Origin: Verrucomicrobiota bacterium
GTDB taxonomy: Bacteria; Verrucomicrobiota; Verrucomicrobiia; Limisphaerales; VHDF01
Assembly: GCA_016871495.1 (NCBI GenBank)
Contig: VHDF01000029.1
Coordinates: 1 to 53,871, forward strand
DNA: 53,871 nt
Direction: 5' to 3'
The notes beneath the pieces were generated by a model that saw nothing but the letters and a program-made list of their open reading frames with translations, searched no databases and was not told the DNA's origin. This document shows, piece after piece, positions 9,483-34,223 of the stretch. Made by a program: the position numbers and the translations under genes. Positions within the stretch are counted from its first letter, which is position 1. Each line of letters starts with the position of its first letter.

Positions 9483-11039
9483 GTGACTTTGTTCCTATGG
9501 CCGGGCTTTGCCGCCGCGATGATTTCGTGGATGACGGCCATGACCTCCGCTCCGGCCTCCGGCCCGGCACGGCTCGAGTCAGGCAAGGCGCTCGCCCAGG
9601 CTTATTGCGCCGCCTGCCATCTTTTTCCCGAGCCCGACCTGTTAGACCGCAAGACCTGGGCGGAGCAAACCTTGTGGCGCATGAAGGTTCGGATGGGATT
9701 GGCGCCCGAAGACCTCAAACGCTACCCGGACTTTGAACGCATCAAGGCCTCCGGCTCGGTCTTGAGCGCGCCCCTCTGCACGCCGGATGAATTCCGACAG
9801 ATCGCGGATTATTATCTGGCGTCCGCCCCCTTGAACGCTTTGCCCCAAGCCCAGCGCCCGGCCATCGAGTCAGGTGTGCCCGGCTTTCGGTTCGAGCCGG
9901 GGTCCTTCCGGATCCCGCCCCCGGCAACAACGCTGGTTCATATCAGCCGCGCCTCCAAAAGGATTTATGCCGCGCACGCGGAAACGAAAACACTTCACGT
10001 CCTCGATGCTTCCGGCCAGGAGGTCGATGCCATTGCGGTGGGCAACGTGCCCGTGGCCCTCACCGAGACGAGCCGGGGCCTCTACGTCACGATGATCGGA
10101 CAATTCCTTCCCTCGGAGGAGGCGCTGGGCGAGATGACCCTGCTGGAGCGGCAGGGAGAACGGTTCCGCCCGTCGCGCGTCTTCTTTCAGCACGCTCCTC
10201 GGTTTACGCATTCCGAATTCGCGGACCTCAACGGGGACGGGCGGATGGATTTGGCGGCGTGTTATTTTGGTTATTTTACCGGACGCTTCGTCTGGCATGA
10301 GTCCTTGGGCGGAGGAGAATACCGCGAGCATGTCCTCTATCCCAAGCCGGGCGCGGTGCGCTCGGTCGCGCGGGATTTCAACGGGGACGGACGCCGCGAT
10401 CTGGCCGTGCTGATCGCCCAGGAAACGGAGGCCATGTTTCTCTTTCTGAACAACGGACAGGGACAATTCACTCACCAAGCGGTGTTTCAACATTCCCCGT
10501 GCCACGGGCACACCTACTTCGAGGTGGCCGACTTCAATCGCGATGGCTTGGACGATTTCCTCGTCACGAACGGGGACAACGGCGAGTATCCGTCTCCGAC
10601 CAAGCGTTACCACGGGGTGCGAATCTATTTGAACCGGGGAAATTTGCGGTTCGAGGAGTCCTGGTTCTTCCCCATGAATGGCGCTTTCAAAGCGGTCGCC
10701 CGCGATTTCGACGGGGACGGGGATCTGGACATCGCGGCGATCTCGTTTTTTCCCGATTACCGGCATTCGCCCGAGGAAAGCTTTGTGCTGTTGCAGAATC
10801 AGGGCGGCATGCGTTTCCGCGCCTTCAGTTTTCCGGAGGCCGTCTCCGGACGCTGGCTGACGATGGACGCGGAGGATCTCGATGGCGATGGCGACATCGA
10901 TCTCGCATTGGGATCCTACATTCGCGGGCCGAGTGAGGTGCCGGAACAGGTGGCGACCAAATGGGAGGCCGAGGGAAGGTCGGTCGTCCTGCTCCGCAAC
11001 TCGCACCGGAATGCCTCCGTGGACGCGCGAACCCCATGA
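9483..11039 (+). CDS. Exported haem-binding VCBS/FG-GAP propeller protein
   Basis: The 518-residue product starts with a short hydrophobic signal sequence (GTG at 9483; an ATG at 9519 would remove most of it). A c-type haem site, YCAACHLFPEP, follows near residue 42 with DLLDRKTWAEQTLWRM directly behind. This is the usual start of a small cytochrome domain, but the distal methionine is not obvious. From about residue 230 it carries FG-GAP/VCBS repeats with calcium-binding loops: DLNGDGRMD, DFNGDGRRD, DFNRDGLDD, DFDGDGDLD and DLDGDGDID. Together they should form a beta-propeller outside the cytoplasm. It is the first gene of a four-gene operon, and its stop overlaps the next start as ATGA. A redox or sensing role at the cell surface is inferred only from the haem motif. 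Confidence 0.85.
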   Translation: MTLFLWPGFAAAMISWMTAMTSAPASGPARLESGKALAQAYCAACHLFPEPDLLDRKTWAEQTLWRMKVRMGLAPEDLKRYPDFERIKASGSVLSAPLCTPDEFRQIADYYLASAPLNALPQAQRPAIESGVPGFRFEPGSFRIPPPATTLVHISRASKRIYAAHAETKTLHVLDASGQEVDAIAVGNVPVALTETSRGLYVTMIGQFLPSEEALGEMTLLERQGERFRPSRVFFQHAPRFTHSEFADLNGDGRMDLAACYFGYFTGRFVWHESLGGGEYREHVLYPKPGAVRSVARDFNGDGRRDLAVLIAQETEAMFLFLNNGQGQFTHQAVFQHSPCHGHTYFEVADFNRDGLDDFLVTNGDNGEYPSPTKRYHGVRIYLNRGNLRFEESWFFPMNGAFKAVARDFDGDGDLDIAAISFFPDYRHSPEESFVLLQNQGGMRFRAFSFPEAVSGRWLTMDAEDLDGDGDIDLALGSYIRGPSEVPEQVATKWEAEGRSVVLLRNSHRNASVDARTP

Positions 11040-14000
11040 GCGCGATTCCCGCATTCGGCCGCCTGCTCGCCGTGGGATGGATCGGACTCGGGGTGAGCCT
11101 GCCGTCCAGCGCCGCAGCGGATTCATTCGCGAGCGGGCCGGGTTATCGGGCGAAGCCGCTGTCCGTCACGCCCGGCAACCGGGTTGGATTCGCGCGGATG
11201 CAGGCGTCCGCCACAGGCATCGCGTTCACGAACGTCCTCTCGAGAGAACGTTACACCACGAATCAGATTCATCTGAACGGCTCCGGGGTGGCGGCGGGCG
11301 ACATCGACGGGGACGGTTGGTGCGATCTGTATTTCTGCGGATTGGACGGATCCAACGCGCTGTATCGGAATTTGGGCGGTTGGCGCTTCGAGGAGATCGC
11401 CAAGCAAGCGGGCGTGGAGTGTGCCGGCTTGGACTCGACGGGAGCGGCCTTCGCGGATCTGGATGGCGACGGCGATCTCGATTTGGCGGTCAATACGATC
11501 ATGGCGGGCACGCACCTGTTCCAAAATCAGGGGAACGGCGGGTTTCTTCCGTGGCCCGGCGCGCCGCTCAACTTCAGGCGAGGCGGGATGTCGCTTGCTT
11601 TGGCCGACATTGATGGCGACAGCGACTTGGATCTTTATGTGGTGAACTACCGAACCGTGACGGTGCGCGACCAACCCGCGATCCGCATCAAGGCTGAATA
11701 CGTGAACAATCTGCCCGTGATTGCCAGTGTGGATGGCAAACCCGCTTCGGATCCGGAGGTGGCGGGGCGATTTACTCTGAGCCCGGCGGGCAAGATCTTC
11801 GAAAACGGGGAAATCGACGTTCTCTATCGAAATGACGGCGCGGGCAAGTGGACTCCGATATCCTTCACCGGAGGCGCTTTTCTGGATGAAGACGGCAAAC
11901 CGTTGTCCGTCCTGCCTTTTGACTGGGGACTGTCCGCCATGTTCCGGGACATCAACCGGGACGGCGCGCCCGACCTCTATGTCTGCAACGACTTCCGTTC
12001 GTCCGACCGGCTTTGGATGAATGACGGGAAAGGAAACTTTCGCGCCGCGCCGCGTTCCACCCTCCGCCACACTTCGCTTTTTTCAATGGGCGTCGATTTC
12101 GCGGACCTTGATCGCGACGGATTCGACGACTTTATCGTCGTGGACATGTTGAGCCGGGATTACGTCCGCCGGCAGGTGCAGGTGGGAGAGTTGGCCCCTC
12201 CCGGCTCGGCTCCGGCGGGGGGCGCCGCGCGTCCGCAGTTTCCCCACAATACGCTGTTCCGAAACCGGGGGGATGGGACCTTTGCCGAGATCGCCTGGTA
12301 CAGCGGCTTGGAAGCGTCGGAGTGGTCCTGGACACCGGCCTTCCTCGACGTGGATTTGGACGGTTACGAGGACTTGCTCGTCACGAACGGACACGAGCGT
12401 GACGCGATGAACGCCGACGTCATGCAACGCGCCGCGCAAGAGCAGAAGAGCAAACGCCTGTCGCCCTCCGAACTGTTGAATTTGAACCATCTGTTCGGAA
12501 GGTTGAACACCCCGAATGTGTCCTTTCGGAATCGCGGGAACCTGACGTTTGAGGAAACGAGCGATCAGTGGGGATTCAACGCCGCGGCCGTTTCGCACGG
12601 ACTCGCGCTGGCGGATCTGGACGGCGATGGCGATCTCGACGCGGCGGTGAACAATCTGAATGACGAGGCCGCGCTGTATCGAAATGAAGCCGGGGCGCCC
12701 CGCGTCGCGGTGAGGCTCAAAGGCACCGGAGGCAACCGCTTTGGCATTGGCGCCCGGATCACACTTCAAGGAGGAGCGGTTCCGGAGCAGAGCCAGGAAA
12801 TGATGGCGGGCGGGCGATACCTTTCGAGCGATGAACCCTTGCGCGTTTTCGCGGCGGGAACGCGCAACGATCCGATGCACCTCGAAATTCGATGGCGAAA
12901 CGGCAAGAAGAGCCGCATTGAAGGCGTGCGCGCCAATCACCTTTACGATGTGGAAGACGCCTCGGGACTCGAGCCGGCGACCGCCCCGCTCGCCCCCCCC
13001 AACCTGCCGGTGTGGTTCGAAGATCTCAGCGGGAACCTGGGCCACGAACACCACGATGATCCCTTCAACGAAGAGGCGCGGCAGCCCCATTTGGGAAAAA
13101 GTTTGAACCGGCTCGGACCTGGCCTGGCCTGGCTGGACGTCGATGGCGATGGCTCCGAGGAGTTGGTCATTGGAGGAGGCAGGGGCGGCGCGGTCCGCGC
13201 GTTTCGATACGAAGGTTCCGGAAAATTCGCCGAACTCACCGGGGCGCCTTGGAATCGTCCGCTCCTCCAGGACACGCTTGGGCTGGCGGGCTGGACCGGG
13301 GTGTTGGTGGCGGTCCACGCGGGGTATGAAGACCTTCAGAGTAAAAGTGGAACGTTGCGGATTTTTGATGGCCGCCGAAAAACGAGCGGAGAAAGCTTGA
13401 AGGGTGAGACCTCCAGTTTTGGGCCGATGGCCATGGCGGATTTGGACGTGGATGGGGATCTTGATTTGTTTGTGGGAGGTCGTGCAGCCCCCGGCCGTTA
13501 CCCGGCGGCGGCGGACAGTTTGTTGCTGCGCAACGATGGGGGCCGGCTGACCGTGTGGCAGCGCTTCGAGAAGTTGGGCATGGTCAGCGGCGCGATCTTT
13601 ACGGACCTGCGCGGGGACGCGGCCCCCGAACTGGTCCTGGCCTGCGAATGGGGTCCGGTCCGGGTGTTCGAGTGGCGAGACGCCCGCCTGACTGAAGTGA
13701 CGGAGTCGTTGGGATTGGCGAACGATCGAGGATGGTGGAACGGGGTCGCGGCGGGCGATTGGGATGGGGATGGGCGACAAGACCTGGTGGTGAGCAACTG
13801 GGGTTTGAACAGCCGTTATCGAGCCAGCCACGCGCATCCCTTGCGCCTTCATTACGGAGAACTCCGGGGAGATGGCAGCGTGACGTGTTTCGAAACGCGA
13901 TGGGAACCCTCGGTCGGCAGGGATGGGTTTGTGAGAGATCGCCAAGCGATTCTCGGAGCGCTGCCCGCGCTGGCCGAACTTTTCCCGAGCTTCGAGGCGT

Positions 14001-14731
14001 TCGGAAAATCCAGCGTCGAACAAGCGCTCAGCGACTTTGCGGGTCACTTGGACAAACGAGAGGTCAACACCCTGGCGAGTGCGGTGTTTCTGAACCGGGA
14101 CGGGCGCTTGGAACGTCGCGATCTTCCGCCCGAAGCGCAATGGGCGCCTGCTTTTGGAGTCAACGTGGCGGATGCGGACGGGGACGGCTTCGAGGATCTC
14201 TTTCTGAGTCAGAACTTTTTCGGGAACGTGGATGAGGGCAGCCGCGGAGACTCGGGACTGGGGCTGTGGCTGCGCGGGGACGGGAAGGGAGGATTCAGAG
14301 CCGTTCCGGCCACGCTTTCGGGTGTTCGCGTGTGGGGCGAGCAACGAGGCAGCGCGGTGGGCGATTTCGATGGTGACGGGCGCGTGGATCTGGCGGTGGC
14401 TCAGAACGGCGCGGCGACGCGACTTTTCCGGAACACGGCCGCGCGCCCGGGACTGCGCGTGCGAATGAAAGGCCTCGGCGCCAATCCTGCAGCCGTCGGA
14501 ACGATCGTGAGAGTGAAATGCGATGGAAAGTGGGGGCCGGCGCGCGAGATTCGGGCCGGGGGGGGATACCTTTCCCAGGACAGTTCGATGCCCGTGCTCA
14601 GTCTTCCCGGAACACTCGAAGCCGTCCGCGTGCGCTGGCCGGGCGGCGCCTCGGCGGAATGGCCGGTGGCGCCCGGTTCGAAAGAAATTGAAATCGATCA
14701 GCAAAGCGGGCAACTCCGCGTCGTGCGATGA
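11036..14731 (+). CDS. Exported two-unit FG-GAP/ASPIC-UnbV giant protein, paralogue 1
   Basis: From the ATG at 11036, which overlaps the previous stop as ATGA, the product has 1,231 residues; the longer frame from 10961 lies inside the upstream gene and is rejected. A signal peptide covers about residues 1-28. Unit one (about 40-640) has FG-GAP/VCBS blades with loops such as DIDGDGWCD, DLDGDGDLD, DINRDGAPD and DVDLDGYED. It closes with an ASPIC/UnbV domain at about 556-640 (RLKGTGGNRFGIGARI, MMAGGRYLSSDEPLRVFAAG). A linker with GHEHHDDPFNEEARQP leads into unit two (about 660-1231), a second propeller and a second ASPIC/UnbV domain near 1140 (AGGGYLSQDSS). Such proteins are related to CRTAC1, and database entries of this type are sometimes mislabelled RNA-binding. 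Calcium-stabilised adhesion or polymer binding is plausible; no catalytic site is seen. Confidence 0.88.
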   Translation: MSAIPAFGRLLAVGWIGLGVSLPSSAAADSFASGPGYRAKPLSVTPGNRVGFARMQASATGIAFTNVLSRERYTTNQIHLNGSGVAAGDIDGDGWCDLYFCGLDGSNALYRNLGGWRFEEIAKQAGVECAGLDSTGAAFADLDGDGDLDLAVNTIMAGTHLFQNQGNGGFLPWPGAPLNFRRGGMSLALADIDGDSDLDLYVVNYRTVTVRDQPAIRIKAEYVNNLPVIASVDGKPASDPEVAGRFTLSPAGKIFENGEIDVLYRNDGAGKWTPISFTGGAFLDEDGKPLSVLPFDWGLSAMFRDINRDGAPDLYVCNDFRSSDRLWMNDGKGNFRAAPRSTLRHTSLFSMGVDFADLDRDGFDDFIVVDMLSRDYVRRQVQVGELAPPGSAPAGGAARPQFPHNTLFRNRGDGTFAEIAWYSGLEASEWSWTPAFLDVDLDGYEDLLVTNGHERDAMNADVMQRAAQEQKSKRLSPSELLNLNHLFGRLNTPNVSFRNRGNLTFEETSDQWGFNAAAVSHGLALADLDGDGDLDAAVNNLNDEAALYRNEAGAPRVAVRLKGTGGNRFGIGARITLQGGAVPEQSQEMMAGGRYLSSDEPLRVFAAGTRNDPMHLEIRWRNGKKSRIEGVRANHLYDVEDASGLEPATAPLAPPNLPVWFEDLSGNLGHEHHDDPFNEEARQPHLGKSLNRLGPGLAWLDVDGDGSEELVIGGGRGGAVRAFRYEGSGKFAELTGAPWNRPLLQDTLGLAGWTGVLVAVHAGYEDLQSKSGTLRIFDGRRKTSGESLKGETSSFGPMAMADLDVDGDLDLFVGGRAAPGRYPAAADSLLLRNDGGRLTVWQRFEKLGMVSGAIFTDLRGDAAPELVLACEWGPVRVFEWRDARLTEVTESLGLANDRGWWNGVAAGDWDGDGRQDLVVSNWGLNSRYRASHAHPLRLHYGELRGDGSVTCFETRWEPSVGRDGFVRDRQAILGALPALAELFPSFEAFGKSSVEQALSDFAGHLDKREVNTLASAVFLNRDGRLERRDLPPEAQWAPAFGVNVADADGDGFEDLFLSQNFFGNVDEGSRGDSGLGLWLRGDGKGGFRAVPATLSGVRVWGEQRGSAVGDFDGDGRVDLAVAQNGAATRLFRNTAARPGLRVRMKGLGANPAAVGTIVRVKCDGKWGPAREIRAGGGYLSQDSSMPVLSLPGTLEAVRVRWPGGASAEWPVAPGSKEIEIDQQSGQLRVVR

Positions 14732-17700
14732 TTCCTCAAACTCGGAAGCCTCGCGTCCTAGGGTGGGTGCCCGCGGCTTTGCTCGCCGCACTGGGATGGT
14801 TCTCCGCGCGCGCCGCCGACCCGTTGCGATGGGAAAGCTTTCCCCATCACCGCAGGGCGGCGTTGACGGTTCCCACGTCGGATCGGGTTGGATTCACCCG
14901 GATGTTGCCCGAGATCACAGGCCTCCAGTTTACGAACCGGCTCTCCGACACGGCCACCGCCACCAACCGCATCCTCGAGAATGGCTCTGGAGTCGCGCTG
15001 GGGGACATCGACGGAGACGGCTGGTGTGACATTTATTTTTGCCGATTGGAGGGATCCAACGCGCTCTATCGCAATCTCGGCGGATGGAAATTTCAAGAGG
15101 TGACCGCCCCGGCGGGTGTCGCGTGCGCGGATCAAATGTCCACCGGCGCGGTCTTCGCCGATGTGGAGGGGGACGGAGACCTGGACCTCTTTGTCACCTC
15201 CCTCGGCCAGGGCGTCCGGCTCTTCATCAATCAGGGCGGCGGCACGTTCCTCCCTGCGTCCGAGAGCGGTTTGGTCGCGCGAGGCGGGTCGACCTCGATG
15301 GCATTGGCGGACATCGATGGCGATGGGGATCTTGAACTTTACGTCGCGAACTACAGAACCACGACCTACAAAGACGCGCCGCCGGGGGTGAAGGCCGAGG
15401 TGGCGCTCATCGACGGCAAGATCGTCGTCACGCCCGAGGATCGGTTCGAAGGACTTCCCTACAAGGGCGGCGGCATGGGGTTGATTGAGAAAGGCGAACC
15501 CGATGTCCTCTACGTCAACAAGGGGGGCGGCAAATTCGGGCGGATCGCCTGGACCAGCGGCGCGTTCGTGGATGAGGAAGGCAAGACGCTTTCCGGACCG
15601 CCGCTCGATTGGGGACTCAGCGTGATGTTTCGCGACATCAACGGCGACGGCACCCCCGATTTGTATCTGTGCAACGACTTCTCCTTTTCGAGGGACCGGA
15701 TGTGGCTCAATGAGGGAGGAAGGCGCTTCCGGGCGGCGCCGCCCTTTTCGTTGCGCACCCTGAGCATGTCGTCGATGGGCGTGGATTTCGCGGATATCAA
15801 TCGTGACGGCTGGGATGATTTCGTGGTGGTGGACATGTTGAGCCGTGATTGGGGCGCACGCCAGCGCCAGAGGGCCAACACGCTGAAGGGTAAAGTCGAT
15901 TTGCCGGTCGGCGATCCGAAGTATCGTCCGGAGGTATCGAGGAATACCCTGCACCTCAACCGTGGCGACGGCACTTACGCCGAAATCGCCCAGCTCGCCG
16001 GACTGGAGGCGTCCGAATGGTCCTGGGGTGCAGTGTTCCTGGATGTGGACTTGGACGGTTACGAGGACTTGCTGGTAACGACCGGCAACAACCATGACTC
16101 GCTGGACGCCGATCTCCTGAAACAGATTGCCAAGCCGCCGGATCAGGTATCCGCCCAGGAGCACTTCGAGAACCTGTCGAAGTTCCCGCGACTCGAAACG
16201 CCCAACCTCGCGTTCCGCAATCGCGGCGACCTGACGTTTGAAGAAATGGGCGGCGCCTGGGGATTCGGAGATTCGGGCATTTCTCACGGCATGGCCCTGG
16301 CCGACCTCGACCTGGACGGCGACCTCGATGTGGTGATGAACAACTTGCACCAAGTGTCCGGCGTGTATCGCAACGATACGAGCGCGCCCCGGGTCGCGGT
16401 GAAGTTGAGAGGAAGTGGCGGCAACACACGCGGCATCGGCGCCAAAATCAAACTGCGTGGCGGCAAAGGGCCGGCCCAAAGCCAGGAAATGATCGGCGGC
16501 GGCCGCTACCTTTCCGGAGACGATTGCCTCCGCGTGTTCGCGGCCTCACCCCCTGGCCCAAACGCCACCCTCGAGGTCCTTTGGCGTCACGGCACCCAGA
16601 CGGTCATCTCGAACATCCAGCCGAATTTCATTTATGAAGTGATCGAACAGCCGGGCCTTCCGGCAGCCCCCAAGCCACCACCGCCCTCCCCTCCCCTTTT
16701 CGAAAACATCAGCGACCGGCTGGCGCATACTCATTGGGATGATCCCTTCGACGACACGCTCCGCCAACCCGCGTTGAGCCGCGGACTCAGCCGGCTGGGA
16801 CCCGGCATCACCTGGTTCGATGAAGAGGGTGATGGCTGGGACGATCTCGTGATCGGCGCCGGACGCGGAGGCACCTGGACCTTTTTCCGAAACGACCGCA
16901 AAGGCGGGCTCATACTGGAATCCGATCCGGCTTTCAAAGAGACTTTGTTGCGAGACCAAACCACGGTGCTGGGCTGGATCGATCGGCGCCAGCACCGGGG
17001 TTTCCTTGCCGCCGAATCTTCCTACGAAGCGTCCAATCCGGGAGATCCCAGTCTGCAACACTACCGGCTTCAGGAGAAGCGCGTGACGCCCATCCTCAAA
17101 GCAGGACGCAGCAGCCCGGGCCCGACGGCCATGGCGGACATCGACGGCGATGGCCATCTGGATCTGTTCGTCGGGGGACGAGTCATCCCCGGGCGTTATC
17201 CTGAACCCGCGACCTCGCAAGTCCTGCTCGGCGGGAACGACCTTTTTGCGTCGAACAGCCCGGGAGAGATGGGACTGTCCATCACGGGCATGATCAGTGG
17301 AGCTCTGTTTGCCGATCTCGATCGCGATGGTTTCGCGGAGCTGATCCTGGCTTGTGAATGGGGTCCGGTTCGGATTTTTCGGAACGATCGAGGAAAACTC
17401 GTTGAAGCCACACGCGAATGGGGACTGGCTGACGAACTCGGCTGGTGGAACGGCGTGACCGCCGGAGATTTCGACGAGGACGGGCACGTCGACCTCTGCG
17501 TTTCCAACTGGGGCCGGAACTCAAAATACCAGCGGTTTCTCGGCCAAACCCTCCGCCTTCACGCCGGTGATTTTCATGGCCAGAATGTCGTTGACCTCGT
17601 GGAAGGGCAGTTCGATCCCAGGCTGGGTTACTTTGTCCCGGTCCGCGATTTCGATACGATCGCCCAGGTTTTCCCCGAGTTGCGGGAGCGCGTGACGACC

Positions 17701-18441
17701 TACCGTGCCTTTGGACAAGCTTCCGTCGCAGAGGTCCTGGGATCGCATGCCTCGCGAGCCTTGGAGTTCCGCGTGAATACGCTCGACAGCAAAGTGTTTT
17801 TGAATCGCGGCGGAAGATTCGAAGCGCGCTCCCTGCCGGTCGAGGCCCAATTCGCGCCGGCCTTTGGAGTCAGCGCAGGCGACTTGGACGGGGACGGCCA
17901 TGAAGACTTGTTCCTGGCCCAAAACTTTTTTGATGTGGACCCCGACAGTTCCCGTTTCGACGCGGGAGTGGGCCTTTGCCTGCTCGGGGATGGTCGCGGT
18001 GGATTCACCGCGCAGTCCCCTGCGGCGTCAGGCATTCGCATCTATGGGGAGCAACGGGGCATCGCCCTTTCGGATTTCGACCGCGACGGGCGCCTCGACT
18101 TGGCCGTGGGTCAGAATCGGGCCCCAACCCAGCTCTATCACAACCGGCGCGCTCGTCCTGGCCTTCGTGTCCGGCTGACCGGTCCGGCCGGAAACACACA
18201 GGCCGCGGGGGCCACACTCCGTTGGGTGGCCGGGAAGAGCAGCTCTCCGGTCCGCTCAATCGCCATCGGCTCAGGCTATTGGTCTCAAGACAGCTCTGTG
18301 CAGGTTCTGCCCTCGCCCCCTTCGAACGCGGAATTGGAGGTCGTCTGGCCTGGCGGAAAACGCACGCGCTCGGCCATCCCGGGATCCGCCCGGGAAATCG
18401 AGGTCCATGTTGATGGCGTGATCAAAGTGGTCCTCTTGTGA
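14728..18441 (+). CDS. Exported two-unit FG-GAP/ASPIC-UnbV giant protein, paralogue 2
   Basis: The 1,237-residue product is collinear with its upstream neighbour over its whole length. It has a signal peptide (MIPQTRKPRVLGWVPAALL..., cleavage probably after ARA), a first propeller with DIDGDGWCD, DIDGDGDLE, DINGDGTPD and DVDLDGYED, and a first ASPIC/UnbV domain near residue 556 (KLRGSGGNTRGIGAKI, MIGGGRYLSGDD). The linker motif here is AHTHWDDPFDD. A second propeller follows, with a second ASPIC/UnbV domain near 1145 in which the glycine-rich turn reads GSGYWSQDSS. The ATG at 14728 overlaps the preceding stop as ATGA. Divergence from paralogue 1 is spread evenly, with conserved loop spacing, which fits an old tandem duplication under selection and not a recent copy. 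Function is unknown beyond probable calcium-dependent binding outside the cell. Confidence 0.88.
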   Translation: MIPQTRKPRVLGWVPAALLAALGWFSARAADPLRWESFPHHRRAALTVPTSDRVGFTRMLPEITGLQFTNRLSDTATATNRILENGSGVALGDIDGDGWCDIYFCRLEGSNALYRNLGGWKFQEVTAPAGVACADQMSTGAVFADVEGDGDLDLFVTSLGQGVRLFINQGGGTFLPASESGLVARGGSTSMALADIDGDGDLELYVANYRTTTYKDAPPGVKAEVALIDGKIVVTPEDRFEGLPYKGGGMGLIEKGEPDVLYVNKGGGKFGRIAWTSGAFVDEEGKTLSGPPLDWGLSVMFRDINGDGTPDLYLCNDFSFSRDRMWLNEGGRRFRAAPPFSLRTLSMSSMGVDFADINRDGWDDFVVVDMLSRDWGARQRQRANTLKGKVDLPVGDPKYRPEVSRNTLHLNRGDGTYAEIAQLAGLEASEWSWGAVFLDVDLDGYEDLLVTTGNNHDSLDADLLKQIAKPPDQVSAQEHFENLSKFPRLETPNLAFRNRGDLTFEEMGGAWGFGDSGISHGMALADLDLDGDLDVVMNNLHQVSGVYRNDTSAPRVAVKLRGSGGNTRGIGAKIKLRGGKGPAQSQEMIGGGRYLSGDDCLRVFAASPPGPNATLEVLWRHGTQTVISNIQPNFIYEVIEQPGLPAAPKPPPPSPPLFENISDRLAHTHWDDPFDDTLRQPALSRGLSRLGPGITWFDEEGDGWDDLVIGAGRGGTWTFFRNDRKGGLILESDPAFKETLLRDQTTVLGWIDRRQHRGFLAAESSYEASNPGDPSLQHYRLQEKRVTPILKAGRSSPGPTAMADIDGDGHLDLFVGGRVIPGRYPEPATSQVLLGGNDLFASNSPGEMGLSITGMISGALFADLDRDGFAELILACEWGPVRIFRNDRGKLVEATREWGLADELGWWNGVTAGDFDEDGHVDLCVSNWGRNSKYQRFLGQTLRLHAGDFHGQNVVDLVEGQFDPRLGYFVPVRDFDTIAQVFPELRERVTTYRAFGQASVAEVLGSHASRALEFRVNTLDSKVFLNRGGRFEARSLPVEAQFAPAFGVSAGDLDGDGHEDLFLAQNFFDVDPDSSRFDAGVGLCLLGDGRGGFTAQSPAASGIRIYGEQRGIALSDFDRDGRLDLAVGQNRAPTQLYHNRRARPGLRVRLTGPAGNTQAAGATLRWVAGKSSSPVRSIAIGSGYWSQDSSVQVLPSPPSNAELEVVWPGGKRTRSAIPGSAREIEVHVDGVIKVVLL

Positions 18442-21400
18442 AACCCGGCCTTCCATCCTGGATCCCTGGGGCATGGATGCGCGCCATGGTTCTCGCCGGC
18501 GCCGTGCAGTGCGGCCTTCAAGCGGCCGCTCCTTCCTTCCGCGTCCTCTCGCTGCCGGCGCCGGCAAACCCTCCGCGCGCGGGTTTCACCCGGCTGCCGG
18601 CCGGGCAAACCGGGGTGGCCTTCACCAATGTGCTTTCGGACGAACGCTCCATTGCCAATCGCAACCTGCTCAGCGGCTCCGGTGTCGCCGCGGGCGACGT
18701 CGATGCGGACGGCAAGGCCGACCTCTATTTCTGCGGGCTCGATTCGAACAACAAATTGTTTCGCAATCTGGGCGGATGGCGGTTTGAGGACATCACCGAC
18801 CAAGCCGGGGTCGCGTGTGCCGGCCAGGATTCCACGGGCGCAGCCTTCGCGGATGTGGACGGGGATGGAGATCTGGACCTGCTGGTCAACGCGCTCGGCG
18901 GCGGAACGCGCCTCTTCAAAAACGAGGGTGGAGGAAGGTTTCGCGAGACGACGGCGGAAGCCGGACTGGCTTCACGCCACGGGAGCATGTCGATGGCTCT
19001 TGCCGACATCGAAGGCGACGGGGATCTCGACCTTTACGTTTGCAATTTCTTTCCCACCACCATCAAAGACCAGCCCCGAGCCCGATTCTCCATCACACCG
19101 ATGGAGGGACGCCCGGTGGTCACGGCCGTCAACGGACGCCCGGCGACGGACGCCGATCTGACCAACCGCTTTGTCTTCACCCCCTCCGGTGAAGTGTTGG
19201 AATACGGTCAGGCGGACGACTTTTTTCGCAATGACGGACAGGGCCGCTTCAGCCGCATCTCCTTTACCGACGGCACGTTTCTGGACGAAGACGGACGTCC
19301 GCTGAACTCCGCCCCGCAGGACTGGGGGCTGGCCGTGCAGTTTCACGACCTCAACGCCGATGGCGCACCGGATTTGTACGTTTGCAACGACTTGTTTACG
19401 CCAGACCGCATTTGGATCAATGACGGGCGGGGACGCTTCAGGGCCATCGCGCGAACCTCGATTCGCAACATCTCGAGCTTTTCGATGGGCGTGGATTTCG
19501 GAGATCTGAACCGCGACGGCCATGTCGATTTTTTTGTCGTCGATATGCTCAGCCGCGACACGTTGAAACGGCTGGTCCAAGTGAGTTCGATGGACAACTT
19601 TCAATGGCCACCGGGATTGTATGACAACCGCCCCCAGTTTTCCCGCAACACCCTGCACATCAATCGCGGCGACGGCACGTTCGCGGAACTCGCTTACTTT
19701 GCCGGTCTCGAAGCGAGCGACTGGTCTTGGGGTCCGATTTTCCTGGATGTGGACCTCGATGGCTACGAGGACATCCTGGTCACCAACGGACAGTGGCGCG
19801 ATTTCCAGAACGCCGACATGGCAGCCCGCATCGACAGCGCCCGCGCGTCCCGCCAACTCACGGCGGCAGATATCGCACGGCTGCAACGGGAAATTCCGAG
19901 GCTCGACACCCGGAATGTGGCGTTCCGGAATCGGGGGAATCTCACTTTCGAAGAAGTGGGCGAAAGGTGGGGGTTCGCGGACCCGGGCGTCTCCCAAGGC
20001 ATGGCGCTGGCGGATTTGGATGACGATGGAGACCTCGACGTGGTGGTGAACAATCTGAACGCGCCCGCCGCAGTCTATCGCAATGAAAGCACAGGCCCGC
20101 GGGTCGCCGTCCGCCTCAAGGGCCGGGGACCGAATACTTTCGGCATCGGCGCCAAAGTCCGGTTGCTGGGAGGACCCGTTCCCGTTCAAGGCCAGGAGTT
20201 GCTCGCGGGGGGGCGATATCTTTCGGGAGACGATCCTCGGCGTGTTTTTGCCGCGGGAACCAACCCCAAAAACCTTCGACTGGAAGTGATCTGGCGCGGC
20301 GGAAATCAAAGCTCGATCGACGCCGTGGAGCCGAATCGGATGTACGTCATCGAAGAAATGGACGCGGCGGCTCCTCCTGCATCGCCGCCCAACAAGCCCG
20401 CCGCTCCGGCGTGGTTCGAGGACCTTTCGGCGAAATTGAACCACTCGCACCACGAGGAACCCTTCAACGATTTCGAATTACAACCGCTCCTGCCCCGCCG
20501 CTTTAGCACTCTCGGCCCGGGCGTAGGATGGGTGGACCTCAACGGCGACGGGCGTGAGGAAATCGTCGTCGGCAGCGGGCGTGGCGGTCCAGTCGCAGCC
20601 GTGACATTCGATCCCTCCGGGGTGTTCCAACCCCTGGAAGGATCCCTCTGGAAGCGCCCGGTGACAAGGGATACGGCGGGTCTGGCCGGGCTCGAACAAT
20701 TCCTGCTGCTGGGCAGCTCCAGTTTCGAGGATGGCCGGACTCAAGCCGGCATCTTGCGCATTTACGATGCGCTCCGCGGCGCCAGTGGCGAAAGCGTGTC
20801 CGGCCACGACATGATCGCGGGGCCCCTCGCCGTCGCCGATTTCGACCTTGATGGCGACCTGGATGTTTTCGTGGGATGCCGCGCGCTGCGCGGGCGCTAC
20901 CCGGAACCGGGCGCTTCCCTGTTGCTGCGCAACGACGCCGGACGCTGGGCAGTGGCCCAATCCCTCGACGCCGGAATGGTCACCGGTGCCCTCTTCTCCG
21001 ATCTCGATTCGGACGGTCGCGCCGAATTGGTCCTGGCCACGGATTGGGGTCCTCTTCGCGTTTTTTCCATCCGGGATGGAACCTTTCACAGTGGCGGGGT
21101 CTTGGATCGCAAGCTCGCGGCATGGACCGGTTGGTGGAGTGCCGTGGCCACAGGGGATTTCGACGGGGATGGACGTCTGGACCTCGTGGCCTCGAACTGG
21201 GGCCGAAACCACCGAATGCGAGCCTCCAGCGAACATCCGGCGCGGATCCGCTTCGCCGATCTGGACGGCAATGGAACGGTGGAAGTTGTCGAGACCCTTT
21301 GGGATCAGAACTTGAACCGGGAAGCCCTTTGGACCGGCTGGCAGGATTTACGCCCCGCCGCTCCTTTTCTGGCCGAGCGCGTGGAAAAATTTGAACAGTA

Positions 21401-22145
21401 CGCTTCATCCACTTTGCCCGACGTCTTTGGGCCGGCTTGGGCAGGCATGAAGGAGAGGACAGCCACGACGTTCGCGAGCATGGTCTTTCTGAATCGTGGA
21501 GATCGCTTCGAGGCGCGAGAATTGCCGATGGAAGCTCAATGGGCTCCCGGATTCGGACTTTCCGTGGCGGACTTCGACGGGGACGGGCAGGAGGACGTGT
21601 TCATGGCTCAGAACTTCTTCGGCCAGCACCGATCCCAAAGCCGCCAGGACGCAGGCCGCGGGGTGCTTCTGAAGGGTGACGGCCAAGGGGGCTTTGGATC
21701 CATTCCAGGCCAGGAATCCGGATTGCTCGTTTACGGGGAAGGTCGTGGGAGCGCCGTGGGTGATTTTGATGCGGACGGGCGTCCGGACTTGCTGGTGGGG
21801 CAGAACGGCGCCGAGACCAAGCTCTTTCGAAATCGCGCGGCTCGTCCAGCGCGACGGATCCGGATCGAAGGCCGCGAAGGCAACCGCCATGGCATCGGGG
21901 CACTCGTGAGAGTGCGGCAGGGGGCGCGATGGAGTTCCGTGAAGGAGATCAAGTCCGGCACCGGCTACGGTTCCACCGATGCTCCGGTGCTCTTGTTCAA
22001 CCTTGAGGATCAGCCCGGGGAAATCGAGATTCGCTGGTCGGGAGGCGCCGTGATGAAGCACTCGCTCCCGGCGGGGCCAGGCGAGATCAAGGTATCCCAA
22101 AAAGAGAACCGCGTTGTGAGTTCTTCCGTCAGGGCAACGCCTTGA
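18438..22145 (+). CDS. Exported two-unit FG-GAP/ASPIC-UnbV giant protein, paralogue 3
   Basis: The 1,235-residue product starts at a GTG (18438) that overlaps the stop of paralogue 2 as GTGA. It has a signal peptide ending near residue 31 (LQAAA). The first propeller carries DVDADGKAD, DVDGDGDLD, DLNADGAPD, DLNRDGHVD and DVDLDGYED loops. The first ASPIC/UnbV domain is near 555 (RLKGRGPNTFGIGAKV, LLAGGRYLSGDDPRRVFAAG). The linker reads NHSHHEEPFNDFELQPLLP, closest to the ENxFxDF-x2-Q-x-LLP form I know from CRTAC1-like proteins of other phyla. The second propeller (DLNGDGREE, DFDLDGDLD, DFDGDGRLD, DFDGDGQED) ends in a second ASPIC/UnbV domain near 1137, with the C-terminus after about 1225. It is the last gene of the operon; no stem-loop terminator is evident behind it. 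Confidence 0.88.
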   Translation: MKPGLPSWIPGAWMRAMVLAGAVQCGLQAAAPSFRVLSLPAPANPPRAGFTRLPAGQTGVAFTNVLSDERSIANRNLLSGSGVAAGDVDADGKADLYFCGLDSNNKLFRNLGGWRFEDITDQAGVACAGQDSTGAAFADVDGDGDLDLLVNALGGGTRLFKNEGGGRFRETTAEAGLASRHGSMSMALADIEGDGDLDLYVCNFFPTTIKDQPRARFSITPMEGRPVVTAVNGRPATDADLTNRFVFTPSGEVLEYGQADDFFRNDGQGRFSRISFTDGTFLDEDGRPLNSAPQDWGLAVQFHDLNADGAPDLYVCNDLFTPDRIWINDGRGRFRAIARTSIRNISSFSMGVDFGDLNRDGHVDFFVVDMLSRDTLKRLVQVSSMDNFQWPPGLYDNRPQFSRNTLHINRGDGTFAELAYFAGLEASDWSWGPIFLDVDLDGYEDILVTNGQWRDFQNADMAARIDSARASRQLTAADIARLQREIPRLDTRNVAFRNRGNLTFEEVGERWGFADPGVSQGMALADLDDDGDLDVVVNNLNAPAAVYRNESTGPRVAVRLKGRGPNTFGIGAKVRLLGGPVPVQGQELLAGGRYLSGDDPRRVFAAGTNPKNLRLEVIWRGGNQSSIDAVEPNRMYVIEEMDAAAPPASPPNKPAAPAWFEDLSAKLNHSHHEEPFNDFELQPLLPRRFSTLGPGVGWVDLNGDGREEIVVGSGRGGPVAAVTFDPSGVFQPLEGSLWKRPVTRDTAGLAGLEQFLLLGSSSFEDGRTQAGILRIYDALRGASGESVSGHDMIAGPLAVADFDLDGDLDVFVGCRALRGRYPEPGASLLLRNDAGRWAVAQSLDAGMVTGALFSDLDSDGRAELVLATDWGPLRVFSIRDGTFHSGGVLDRKLAAWTGWWSAVATGDFDGDGRLDLVASNWGRNHRMRASSEHPARIRFADLDGNGTVEVVETLWDQNLNREALWTGWQDLRPAAPFLAERVEKFEQYASSTLPDVFGPAWAGMKERTATTFASMVFLNRGDRFEARELPMEAQWAPGFGLSVADFDGDGQEDVFMAQNFFGQHRSQSRQDAGRGVLLKGDGQGGFGSIPGQESGLLVYGEGRGSAVGDFDADGRPDLLVGQNGAETKLFRNRAARPARRIRIEGREGNRHGIGALVRVRQGARWSSVKEIKSGTGYGSTDAPVLLFNLEDQPGEIEIRWSGGAVMKHSLPAGPGEIKVSQKENRVVSSSVRATP

Positions 22146-25877: not shown

Positions 25878-25959
25878 CGGCAGATTCCCGGGTCCGCTTT
25901 GACCTTGTTTGCACCCTCCTGCGTCTCTACGATGACAAGCATTGGATTCCTGATCCGTG

Positions 25960-28900
25960 ATGTCTCATTCCGGCATAAAGCGCGCCGCCTGCCTTTTCGT
26001 GCTTTGGAGCTTCCCGGCCCTGAGCGCAGGGACGGCCCGGATTGATTTCACCCGCGACATCCGGCCCATCATGGCCGACACCTGCTTTCGCTGCCATGGC
26101 TTCGATGCCACAGCACGCAAGGCCGGATTGAGGCTGGATGTCCGAGAAGAGGCGATCAAACCCGCCAAGTCCGGAGCTCGCCCGATCGTTCCGGGGAATC
26201 CGGACGAAAGCGAGATCCTGCGCCGCATGGTCTCCACCGATCCGGATCGGATCATGCCGCCCGGGACACTGCACAAGGATCTGACCGAAGCCCAAAAAGA
26301 TCTCTTCCGCCGATGGATTGCCGAAGGGGCGGAATATCCAGCGCACTGGGCCTTTGTCAAACCGCGCGAACCGGCGATTCCCGCAAGCGGAATCGGCATT
26401 CGAAATCCAGTGGATGCGTTTGTGAAACATCGTCTAGCGGCTCAGAAGCTGACCGCCTCCGCCGAAGCCGACCGGGCCACTTTGTTGCGGCGAGTCACCC
26501 TCGACCTGACTGGACTGCCGCCCACGCCATCCGAACAGCGCGCGTTCCTGTCCGATCGCACTCCCCTGGCTTATGAAAGGCTCGTGGACCGTCTGCTGGA
26601 CTCACCCCGGTTCGGCGAGCGGATGGCGCAAGACTGGCTGGACGTGGCGAGGTATGCGGACAGCAACGGATACCAGGTCGATCGCGATCGTGATCTTTGG
26701 GCGTGGCGGGATTGGGTGGTGAATGCCTTCAACCGGAACCAGCCGTTCGACCAGTTCACCCGCGATCAACTCGCCGGCGACTTGCTGGAGAAACCGACGT
26801 TTGCGCAACGCGTCGCGACCGGATTCAACCGCAACCACATGATCAACGAGGAGGGGGGCATCATTCCGGAGGAATTCCTCGCCGAGTATTGCGCGGACCG
26901 GGTTGAAACCACGGCCACCGTCTGGCTGGGGCTCACGTTCAATTGCGCCCGTTGCCACGATCATAAATACGATCCGTTGACCCAAAAGGATTATTACGGA
27001 CTCTATGCTTTTTTTCACAATGTGGCCGAACAAGGCGTGGGCGACTACGGCGCCCATTACCGCCACAGCACTCCGCCCTTTCTCAAACTTCCGACGCCCG
27101 GGCAGGACGAAAAACTGGCGCGGCTCAAGGCTGAGCTCAGCCAGGCGGAACAGGAATTGAAGCAAGTGGCCGACCGGCTGCTGGAGAACCCCACGAGCTG
27201 GGAAAAGCGAGCCGTCAGCACCTCACCCTCTTGGACCCCCCTCCATTGGACGAGCGCGGAGTTCGCGCTTCCAGCAGACAAAGCCCCAGAAACGCAAATG
27301 GAGGACGGTGCGGTGCGGGTCCGTTCCGGTGGAACTAACGTTCACCTGTTGAAGCTGGAGGCGGCGATCCCAGCAGGTCAATGGACCGGATTCCAGCTCG
27401 ACTTCGAAAACCATCCCGAGGGTGCGGGGCCCGAGACCAATCGGCTCTCGATTCACGAGCTGCGAGTGAAATGGCCGGGAACGAATCAGCTTGTCCTGCG
27501 GGGTCGGGCATTCACGAATTCTGCGCCGGCCGCAGAATCCGCTCGGGCGGTGGATCAAAATACAAACTCGGCGTGGCAACTCCATCTCAGTGATGGAAGC
27601 CGACGGACTGGAACCTGGGACGCGCTGGCAACGGTCACCTGCTCGACGGAATCAAAACTGAGGGTGGAACTGGTGTTTTCGAACCGGCTCCCGGGACATG
27701 CGTGGCGCATGCGGCTCAAGTCCACCGACACCCCGCTCGAGTTGCTTCTCACGCCGACGGTGGCGTCCCTTTTGCAAAAGCCCGGAGAAAAAAGAAGCGC
27801 GGAGGAACGCAAGGAGCTTGACGAATTCCGGCTGGCTCAATCGACCGAACATGTTCGACGCAAAGACCAGGCAGGCCAACTCCGCAAGCAAGTGGCCGAC
27901 ACCGACCACACCATCCCGGTGACGCTGGTGATGTCCGAATTGGAGAAACCACGGGAAACCTTCGTTTTGAAACGGGGTGCGTATGATCAAAAGCTGGAAT
28001 CGGTCAAACCGGCCCCCCCGGCCAGTCTTCCCGGGATGCCTCCGGAGTTCCCGCGAAACCGACTCGGCCTCGCCCGATGGTTGGTGGATCCAGCCCATCC
28101 CCTGACCGCCAGAGTGACGGTCAACCGAATCTGGCAGTCGATCTTCGGCACCGGATTGGTGCGGACACCGGAAGATTTTGGCGTGCAGGGCGAGGCGCCA
28201 AGCCATCCCGATCTGCTCGATTGGCTGGCGGTCGAATTCGTCCGGACCGGTTGGGACATGAAACGGCTTGTCCGTCTGCTCGTGACAAGTGCCACCTACC
28301 GGCAGGATTCCCGGGTGCGGCCTGAACTTCTCGCGGCAGATCCCGAAAATCGCTGGCTGGGACGCGGACCGAGGCATCGTTTGTCAGCCGAGGTCATCCG
28401 GGATCAGGCCCTGGTTTTTGGCGGATGGATGGTGGATCAACTCGGCGGGCCGCCGGTCAAACCCTATCATCCACCCGGACTCTATGAGCAGGTGGTTTCT
28501 GGCTCATCGGCCTCGACCTATGTGCAGGATCATGGCCGATCGCTCTACCGGAGGACGTTATACACCTATTGGAAACGGTCGGTCCCCAATCCCGCCCTTT
28601 TGCTCTTCGACCGTCCTTTTCGAGAAACCTGCACGGTGAAGCGACCGCGTACGTCCACTCCGCTCCAAGCGTTGAATTTGATGAACGACCCCACCTACGT
28701 CGAGTCCGCGCGTCTCCTCGCAGAACGAATCCTGCGCGGCGAGGGTTTGCTTTCGGAAACGCGGATCCGCCGGGCGGTCCGGACGGTGTTGGCTCGTGAA
28801 GCCAGCCAGAGGGAAGTGGAGGTGCTGCTTCGCGGACTGAGTCGCATGCGTCGGAGTTTTGAGGCCGATCCGGATGCCGCCCTGCAGTTGGTTTCAGTCG

Positions 28901-29004
28901 GAGAATCGAAACCTGACCTCTCCCTTGGAACGATCAATCTCGCGGCCTACACGACCATGGCCTGCACCCTGCTCAACCTCGACGAAACGATCACGAAACA
29001 ATGA
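25960..29004 (+). CDS. DUF1549/DUF1553 protein with planctomycete-type cytochrome domain
   Basis: From ATG 25960 the product has 1,014 residues; a GTG three bases earlier is equally possible. A signal peptide (FVLWSFPALSAG) is followed by a PSCyt1 cytochrome-like domain with DIRPIMADTCFRCHG near residue 46 and PGNPDESEILRRM. The DUF1549 domain (about 145-350) has RRVTLDLTGLPPTP, WLDVARYADSNGYQ and a second haem-like site FNCARCHDHKYDP near 330. DUF1553 covers about 690-960 (RLGLARWLVDPAHPLTARV, VNRIWQ, FDRPFRETC). These very common Planctomycetes/Verrucomicrobia proteins pair with DUF1501 proteins and are suspected of acting in complex polysaccharide breakdown or outer-membrane redox steps, but the activity is not established. 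The next gene is the expected DUF1501 partner, 43 bases downstream. Confidence 0.93.
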   Translation: MSHSGIKRAACLFVLWSFPALSAGTARIDFTRDIRPIMADTCFRCHGFDATARKAGLRLDVREEAIKPAKSGARPIVPGNPDESEILRRMVSTDPDRIMPPGTLHKDLTEAQKDLFRRWIAEGAEYPAHWAFVKPREPAIPASGIGIRNPVDAFVKHRLAAQKLTASAEADRATLLRRVTLDLTGLPPTPSEQRAFLSDRTPLAYERLVDRLLDSPRFGERMAQDWLDVARYADSNGYQVDRDRDLWAWRDWVVNAFNRNQPFDQFTRDQLAGDLLEKPTFAQRVATGFNRNHMINEEGGIIPEEFLAEYCADRVETTATVWLGLTFNCARCHDHKYDPLTQKDYYGLYAFFHNVAEQGVGDYGAHYRHSTPPFLKLPTPGQDEKLARLKAELSQAEQELKQVADRLLENPTSWEKRAVSTSPSWTPLHWTSAEFALPADKAPETQMEDGAVRVRSGGTNVHLLKLEAAIPAGQWTGFQLDFENHPEGAGPETNRLSIHELRVKWPGTNQLVLRGRAFTNSAPAAESARAVDQNTNSAWQLHLSDGSRRTGTWDALATVTCSTESKLRVELVFSNRLPGHAWRMRLKSTDTPLELLLTPTVASLLQKPGEKRSAEERKELDEFRLAQSTEHVRRKDQAGQLRKQVADTDHTIPVTLVMSELEKPRETFVLKRGAYDQKLESVKPAPPASLPGMPPEFPRNRLGLARWLVDPAHPLTARVTVNRIWQSIFGTGLVRTPEDFGVQGEAPSHPDLLDWLAVEFVRTGWDMKRLVRLLVTSATYRQDSRVRPELLAADPENRWLGRGPRHRLSAEVIRDQALVFGGWMVDQLGGPPVKPYHPPGLYEQVVSGSSASTYVQDHGRSLYRRTLYTYWKRSVPNPALLLFDRPFRETCTVKRPRTSTPLQALNLMNDPTYVESARLLAERILRGEGLLSETRIRRAVRTVLAREASQREVEVLLRGLSRMRRSFEADPDAALQLVSVGESKPDLSLGTINLAAYTTMACTLLNLDETITKQ

Positions 29005-29047
29005 CCACGCGCGTCCCCAGGCCCGAGTGATGTTCCGGTAAAAGCCC

Positions 29048-30499
29048 ATGACTCCAGATCCTTTCCAGACCGGTTTGTCGAACACCCGCCGGCAGTTTCT
29101 CGGGCGGATGACCTCGGGCATTGGAATCGCCGCGCTGGCGTCGCTCTTGAATCCGCCGGTGCGGGTCGCCGCCTCGCCGGCAATCCGCTCCGCCGGCCCG
29201 CATTTCGCGCCGAAAGCCAGGCGAGTCATCTATCTGGCGCAGGCGGGGGCGCCATCCCAGGTCGACCTGTTTGATTACAAACCTGGATTGAAGCAGCGCT
29301 TCAAACAGGATCTGCCGGCCTCCATCCGCGGAAGCCAGCGCTTGACCGGCATGACCAGCGGCCAGAAAACGTTTCCGATCGCTCCCTCCACGTTCGCCTT
29401 TCATCAGCACGGCCAGAGCGGCATGTGGCTCAGCGAGTTGCTGCCCCACATCGGACGCGTCTCCAACGAGATCTGCCTGATCCGATCGCTTCACACCGAG
29501 GCGATCAATCATGATCCGGCGATGACCTTCCTCCAGACGGGCCATCCACAGGCGGGACGCCCCTCGCTCGGAGGCTGGCTCTCTTATGGATTGGGAAGCG
29601 ATAATTCAAACCTCCCCGCTTTCGTGGTGATGATCTCCCGACCCAGTGGCCCCACCAACGCTCAGCCGCTCCACGAGCGCATGTGGGGGGCGGGCTTTCT
29701 TCCTTCGCAGCACCAGGGCGTCCGCTTCAGTCCGGGAAAAGACCCGGTCCTTTTCCTCTCGAATCCGCCCGGGATCAACCCGGAGCGCAGGCGGATGATC
29801 CTGGACGATCTGGGGGATTTGAACCGGAGAAAATTCGACGATTACCAGGATCCGGAGATCCAGACCCGCATCTCGCAATACGAACTGGCCTACCGCATGC
29901 AGGCTTCTGTTCCCGAATTGGCGGATCTTTCCAAAGAATCCAAGTCCACGTTGGACCTCTACGGTCCGGACGCCTCCACACCCGGAACCTTTGCCGCGAA
30001 CTGTTTGCTCGCCCGCAGGCTGGCCGAGCGCGGCGTGCGTTTCATCCAGCTTTATCATCGCGGATGGGATCAACACGCCGATCTCCCGGCCGGAATCCGG
30101 CATCAGGCGCGGGATGTGGATCAACCTTCGGCAGCCTTGATTCAGGATCTCAAGCAACGAGGCATGCTGGAGGATACCCTGGTGGTTTGGGCGGGCGAGT
30201 TTGGCCGCACCGTTTTCAGCCAGGGCGAGTTGACGGAGACCAACTTTGGACGGGATCATCATCCCCGGTGTTTTTCCATCTGGATGGCTGGAGGCGGGAT
30301 CCGAGGCGGCATGACCTTCGGGGAAACGGACGAATTCTCCTACAATATCGCGGCCGATCCTGTGCATTTGCACGACCTGAACACCACGATCCTGCACTGC
30401 CTCGGTTTGAACCATGAACGCCTCACCTTCCGCCATCAGGGTCGCGACTACCGTTTGACCGATATTCACGGCAGTCTGGTCCGGCCCATTTTAGCTTAG
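29048..30499 (+). CDS. DUF1501 family Tat-exported protein
   Basis: The 483-residue product belongs to DUF1501, related in fold to the alkaline phosphatase/sulfatase superfamily. The N-terminus is a Tat signal with TRRQFLGRM followed by a hydrophobic stretch, implying export in folded form. Characteristic stretches are RRVIYLAQAGAPSQVDLFDYKP, SELLPHIGRVSNEICLIRS, HDPAMTFLQTGHPQAGRPS, WDQHADLP and WAGEFGRTVFSQ, with FGRDHHPRCFSIWMAGGG and GETDEFSYN. The DQH and DHH residues are likely metal ligands in this superfamily. It follows the DUF1549/DUF1553 gene, the usual order, and both probably work together outside the cytoplasm. Its stop overlaps the tail of the minus-strand remnant at 30491-30973. 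Confidence 0.93.
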   Translation: MTPDPFQTGLSNTRRQFLGRMTSGIGIAALASLLNPPVRVAASPAIRSAGPHFAPKARRVIYLAQAGAPSQVDLFDYKPGLKQRFKQDLPASIRGSQRLTGMTSGQKTFPIAPSTFAFHQHGQSGMWLSELLPHIGRVSNEICLIRSLHTEAINHDPAMTFLQTGHPQAGRPSLGGWLSYGLGSDNSNLPAFVVMISRPSGPTNAQPLHERMWGAGFLPSQHQGVRFSPGKDPVLFLSNPPGINPERRRMILDDLGDLNRRKFDDYQDPEIQTRISQYELAYRMQASVPELADLSKESKSTLDLYGPDASTPGTFAANCLLARRLAERGVRFIQLYHRGWDQHADLPAGIRHQARDVDQPSAALIQDLKQRGMLEDTLVVWAGEFGRTVFSQGELTETNFGRDHHPRCFSIWMAGGGIRGGMTFGETDEFSYNIAADPVHLHDLNTTILHCLGLNHERLTFRHQGRDYRLTDIHGSLVRPILA

Positions 30500-33864: not shown

Positions 33865-34223
33865 GGATGGGGCACAGGAACAAGCGAGTTCGTCCGTGTT
33901 TGAACCAAGTTCGCCGAGGTTGAGCATGGAACGAGGCGGTTCGCCGCATGCCGCAACGGCGGCCTGTGCAGCCCAAGAAGGCTCGTAATGGCCTGAAAAC
34001 GCAAGCCCTCGTCCATCAACCGGCTGATCATGGTCGATTCTTTCAAGATGTGGATTTCTGCAAGATCCGCGGCTCGACCCGCGGTTGATCGGTGATGCAA
34101 ACCACACCTTGCGCCCAGTCCTCCAGGCCCGGAAATTCTCCTCGCTCATCTGGCGGCCAATTCGAATTCTGCCATTTCCATCAAGATTCTTTTCGACGTG
34201 CCTCGACCTATTTCCGGGCTGCC
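33865..34223. promoter_or_regulatory. Divergent region between sigma factor and Ig/VCBS protein
   Basis: This holds the promoters of both flanking genes. The plus-strand frame of the downstream gene is open back to 34092, but that stretch shows no domain. No clear -35/-10 boxes or operators were found. Confidence 0.4.

Follow-up and report, generated by a model that had tools for sequence, protein, structure and literature searches.

In vertebrates, CRTAC1 (PDB 9etn) combines a propeller with an ASPIC/UnbV unit. Bacterial integrin-type FG-GAP propellers of seven-fold build, which carry calcium motifs and sometimes form tandem pairs, have been surveyed with Verrucomicrobia among the groups counted (PMC3192720), and the passages on them describe no operon, trio or haem partner. 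The linkage of an FG-GAP/CRTAC1 gene to c-haem proteins is found in hydrazine-synthase-like loci, where a CRTAC1 family gene lies between hydrazine-synthase-like genes (PMC12758564); these loci differ from the one analyzed here in having a single CRTAC1 gene, other haem proteins and no tandem trio. No paper reporting a functional study of bacterial CRTAC1-like proteins was found.

The window (the whole stretch of verrucomicrobial DNA that was analyzed, 53,871 nucleotides long) contains four genes on the + strand, H, A, B and C, in which parts of known kind are combined in a new arrangement. Gene H (9483..11039, GTG start) encodes a secreted, probably mono-haem c-type protein of 518 aa with one FG-GAP propeller and a CAACH motif at residues 42-46. 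It is followed by three genes for double propeller-ASPIC/UnbV proteins: (i) A (11036..14731; 1,231 aa, subfamily A), (ii) B (14728..18441; 1,237 aa, subfamily B), and (iii) C (18438..22145, GTG start; 1,235 aa, subfamily C). Consecutive genes overlap by four bases, reading ATGA at H/A (11036..11039), ATGA at A/B (14728..14731) and GTGA at B/C (18438..18441). The coordinates, lengths and junctions are as first noted, and the signal peptides that had been proposed for the last three products were borne out, a hydrophobic N-terminus being present in all four. A lipobox was looked for at the N-termini of H, A, B and C of the window, and none was found.

The FG-GAP/ASPIC-UnbV build read from the sequence was likewise upheld, as Pfam recognized FG-GAP repeats in all four proteins and, in the three large ones, UnbV_ASPIC with scores exceeding its curated cut-off. 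The FG-GAP_3 scores of the three large proteins were 248-263 bits (cut-off 26.9; A, 248 bits) and those of UnbV_ASPIC were 73, 37 and 65 bits, respectively (cut-off 23.4), the matches in A falling in two stretches. Each large protein consists of two CRTAC1-like units, each a propeller plus an ASPIC/UnbV domain, which we take to have a TTR-like fold; below, any large two-unit protein of this kind is called L. A model of B lacking its signal peptide (1,195 aa, pLDDT 86) was superimposed over residues 10-600 on murine CRTAC1 (9etn_A; Z 38.8, 2.5 A, 450 residues, 22% identity), and its second half forms a further propeller, with a small beta domain after it. Proteins A and C, which are 47-51% identical to B, were assigned the CRTAC1 fold through this sequence identity to the modelled protein. 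In contrast to vertebrate CRTAC1, A, B and C are bacterial, have two units each, occur as a group of three and have a haem protein encoded next to them. Their integrin-type propellers carry 11-14 calcium-type motifs in each protein. That the two halves are real was confirmed by pairwise alignment: the first halves share 53-58% and the second halves 40-48% identity among A, B and C, whereas first and second halves share only about 23-37% in local alignment. Since the halves are far less alike than the same half across the three proteins, the internal duplication predates the A/B/C split.

The earlier note had called H a c-type haem protein. This description draws on the invariant CxxCH motif and an invariant methionine rather than on the Pfam match to Cytochrome_CBB3 (18.7 bits), which lies below the cut-off of 27. 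Residues C42, C45, H46, W59 and M67 are invariant among 14 homologues that are 34-57% identical to the H of the window, and M67, by its invariance, is a candidate distal axial ligand. The model of H (pLDDT 88) comprises a helical N-terminal part with CAACH and then a beta propeller, for which FG-GAP_3 scored 107 bits.

In order to place the large proteins, trees of 84, 137 and 139 large two-unit copies were examined; subfamilies were taken from the IQ-TREE tree, the position of some A-type copies being unstable with FastTree. Clade A comprised 14 rows (SH-aLRT 93), clade B 18 rows at 99 inside a group of 23 rows at 86, and clade C 12 rows at 100, with at most one per genome. As placed by this tree, A, B and C are three separate, old subfamilies present in many families of Verrucomicrobiota, and the order contains about ten subfamilies of large proteins, most copies being single genes. 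That the trio arose by tandem duplication in recent times was ruled out, because each gene is closer to copies from other families than to its own neighbours. Three distinct old types would be compatible with separate parts of a single assembly.

Arrays were compared in 58 relatives (verrucomicrobial genomes of the same order, one per family), at least 43 of which contained a match to B and at least 28 of which yielded two-unit copies that could be read. One copy of each type together with H was found not only in the window but also in two other families, as H-A-C-B (G044) and H-B-A-C (G040). Lacking H, such sets occur in G001 (A-C-B plus one more large copy) and in G035 (A-C, with B on contig C91, where it is preceded by the last part of a C-type gene at the contig start). 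Partial sets were H-A-C in a Verrucomicrobia MAG (L258), C-B in G020, where H and A lie elsewhere on the same contig, and A-B in G003; in G053, A, B and C are all apart. Adjacent L-L pairs joined A, B or C types in 12 cases out of 24, against about 3 expected from the share of copies, and none of these 12 pairs was homotypic (P about 0.005). Among the copies read, types A and C were found together in 8 relatives, C alone in 2 and A alone in none (P about 1e-5, kinship ignored).

These comparisons bear on the proposal of the earlier note that three coupled copies behind one haem protein are the parts of one assembly, against which scattered genes or a variable copy number in relatives had been named beforehand as evidence. 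The three distinct old types and their recurrence as a linked set stood; the order, the presence of H and the number of copies varied, and the contrary evidence was found in part (1-4 large copies per array, permuted order, dispersal in G053). Arrays of two to four copies and dispersed sets rule out a fixed three-copy system. Because copies elsewhere are in part scattered or occur singly, in pairs or in fours, and H is often alone, "three behind H" represents one form of a wider module.

Full-length H was read at no fewer than 36 loci, all with CxxCH. At 10 of 36 loci (hand count) an L gene lay directly beside or just after H, while the chance estimate is under one; both this linkage and the A/B/C arrays thus occur far beyond chance and recur in other families. 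In relatives the number of large copies accompanying H may also be two, one or zero, and G047 and G049 have three H loci each with no close full-length L. Six or seven relatives have, directly before H, a gene for a large secreted PA14/Ig protein; its C-terminal part resembles a carbohydrate-binding module by eye, with Pfam supporting PA14 and Ig only, and this neighbour is absent from the window's own H. The 84 flanking genes analyzed were varied, with a mild excess of TPR (8/84), DUF1501 (4/84) and PA14 (4/84) proteins, and no carbohydrate-active enzyme or other enzyme family common to the neighbourhoods was found among them. A 653-aa protein with eight CxxCH motifs (L082:2068-4026, L136:15539-17497) is encoded immediately behind the H-A-C-B genes in G044 and next to a lone H in G047; it was rejected as a standard part, having been found only with the G044 array and the lone H at G047:C8.

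With 5.05 Mb in 201 contigs, the genome to which the window belongs yielded 29 UnbV_ASPIC matches, and a single full-length H was found in it. About seven further full-length two-unit proteins are encoded there, none in tandem and mostly in subfamilies other than A/B/C, in addition to one broken copy on contig C33, a large propeller gene with split frames (L107 = G000:C33 14564-18269). Within the window, a 594-aa protein (34092-35876, +) with an Ig domain, an FG-GAP propeller and one UnbV_ASPIC domain is a single-unit relative of A-C. A planctomycete-type cytochrome of 1,015 aa (PSCyt1/PSCyt2/PSD1) followed by a DUF1501 protein occupies 25957-30499 (+), and comparable pairs are found close to genes for large propeller proteins in G000:C69, G013:C25, G020:C45 and, weakly, G040:C69. 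Between 31605 and 34230 (-) a weak VPDSG-CTERM protein of 282 aa is encoded beside a 340-aa protein with a sigma-70 region 2 match. Near the contig end (48034-53481, +), a protein of 1,815 aa combines CotH kinase, lamin-tail, Fn3-associated and PKD domains; similar proteins adjoin H in G035 and, more weakly, in G038. As a CotH/lamin-tail protein, it was rejected as a PA14-type partner.

A profile search of named genomes detected two-unit proteins in Verrucomicrobiota, Gemmatimonadota, Planctomycetota and many Bacteroidota. The Bacteroidota form, in which homologous lipoproteins follow SusC/SusD, is the nearest working analogue of the locus. These CRTAC1/VCBS-type proteins are full-length homologues, 28-31% identical to B of the window, and are encoded in tandem sets of one to three copies, of distinct types, sometimes adjoining an H homologue (CxxCH is present in 4/4). 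The order is SusC-SusD-L-L-L-PAP2 in Larkinella and Spirosoma, SusC-SusD-L-PAP2-H with overlapping ends in Flavihumibacter fluminis and a near relative (two loci), and SusC-SusD-L-H in one Bacteroidota MAG; in Marinoscillum SusC and SusD are accompanied by three L copies, and Flavobacterium has two L copies. They differ from the verrucomicrobial loci in following SusC/SusD, in the frequent presence of a PAP2-type haloperoxidase-like gene, and in encoding mostly lipoproteins: a lipobox-like start was seen in 28/39 Bacteroidota L proteins versus 7/137 verrucomicrobial ones, slightly different patterns being used for each count. In the tree, Bacteroidota L proteins stand apart from A/B/C and form types of their own common to different genera; their tandem types arose separately from A/B/C, and the end of their second unit is reduced or missing. 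No SusC/SusD match at E 1e-5 was present in any verrucomicrobial stretch read, the window included, which sets these loci apart from a SusCD-type polysaccharide utilisation locus, and a vanadium-haloperoxidase partner was rejected for Verrucomicrobiota, as none lay near the copies read in relatives. We found no paper on the H-A-B-C operon or its SusCD-linked form in a search that covered few subscription journals; the view that the layout has no described counterpart survives as regards the literature so covered, but the locus is not isolated, given the tandem double-propeller paralogues beside SusC/SusD in Bacteroidota, sometimes with H. Downstream of the three tandem L genes of Marinoscillum (L326:16411-20356) are genes resembling, by eye and from their first residues, those for an aldo/keto reductase, a DUF1080-type 3-keto-disaccharide hydrolase and a Gfo/Idh/MocA oxidoreductase, possibly a hint at keto-sugar substrates.

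We tentatively propose, with a probability of roughly 0.4, that H-A-B-C form one operon whose products make up a secreted multi-protein module, stabilised by calcium and including a c-haem subunit, which would bind an external polymer or some other ligand and perhaps assist in its processing. Proteins A, B and C, with two CRTAC1-like units each, would be three distinct scaffold and ligand-binding proteins, and H, in which covalent haem and a propeller of this type adjoin, would supply the assembly with a step of electron transfer or redox chemistry. The products would touch one another, the ligand may be a carbohydrate, and H would be the carrier of electrons. A working module is favoured by the H-L linkage in two phyla and by distinct large types being repeatedly kept side by side, and their variable number and order argue against a rigid four-part machine. 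Also in favour of the module are the overlapping starts, the quartets in two other families, the heterotypic adjacent pairs, the pairing of A with C, and the PA14/Ig gene before H in relatives; counting against it are the dispersal in G053, the H loci of G047 and G049 with no close full-length L, the varied flanking genes with no carbohydrate-active enzyme in common, and the missing PA14 neighbour in the window.

The binding or processing assembly is preferred over a co-expressed repertoire without a complex, which is nonetheless a real possibility: A, B and C would be independent secreted binders of different ligands, needed under the same conditions, and H a separate redox protein. Such a repertoire would agree with the ten or so mostly single-gene subfamilies, the other full-length copies in the same genome, and the differences in order and number among relatives, including the dispersed set of G053. 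It accounts less well for one-of-each sets without homotypic neighbours, the co-occurrence of A and C, the four-base overlaps, and the recurrence of heterotypic sets in Bacteroidota.

A bolder version of the assembly, which we consider doubtful, holds that the four proteins form an obligate hetero-oligomeric extracytoplasmic machine in which ligand capture is coupled to haem-based electron transfer. Sets of distinct double-propeller subunits would then have been reached independently in different phyla, with and without SusCD, and would represent a kind of bacterial surface complex that is general and so far undescribed.

The propeller of H raises a further alternative, that of an enzyme module. 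Its best structural match is aldos-2-ulose dehydratase (PDB 4a7k/4a7y/4a7z; Z 29.9, 3.2 A, 350 residues), with a weak profile match, and one face carries a patch strictly conserved among the 14 homologues (Q313, E316, D365, Y376, H377, R380, R457, W458). This face could be a metal-dependent active site, as in the dehydratase, acting on keto-sugars or polymers, with the haem removing electrons and A-C presenting the substrate. We regard this as improbable, since the alignment with the dehydratase does not preserve the Y-H-G motif, and LGI1 (Z 28) and integrins (Z 26-27) match nearly as well (overall Z 26-29), so that no function can be deduced from the fold. The dehydratase is an enzyme of about 880 residues, much larger than H, and is not known to be a haem protein. 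Least probable of all is a structural surface layer or integrin-like adhesin, in which the large proteins would coat or attach cells, as their secretion and calcium-motif-rich, integrin-type propellers might suggest, because no anchor or sorting domain was found by Pfam in A-C, the Bacteroidota homologues adjoin transport genes, and a coat would have no need of a haem protein.

In Bacteroidota, Verrucomicrobiota, Planctomycetota and Gemmatimonadota, CRTAC1-like proteins are abundant, and a single genome may have tens of genes for them. One member of each of three old types plus a haem partner, kept across families, offers a compact set for purification and testing, and the SusC/SusD linkage in Bacteroidota provides a concrete hypothesis for the role of the family in bacteria without SusCD. 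Together, the sets kept by relatives and the homologues beside sugar-uptake genes in Bacteroidota may point to a common surface machinery.
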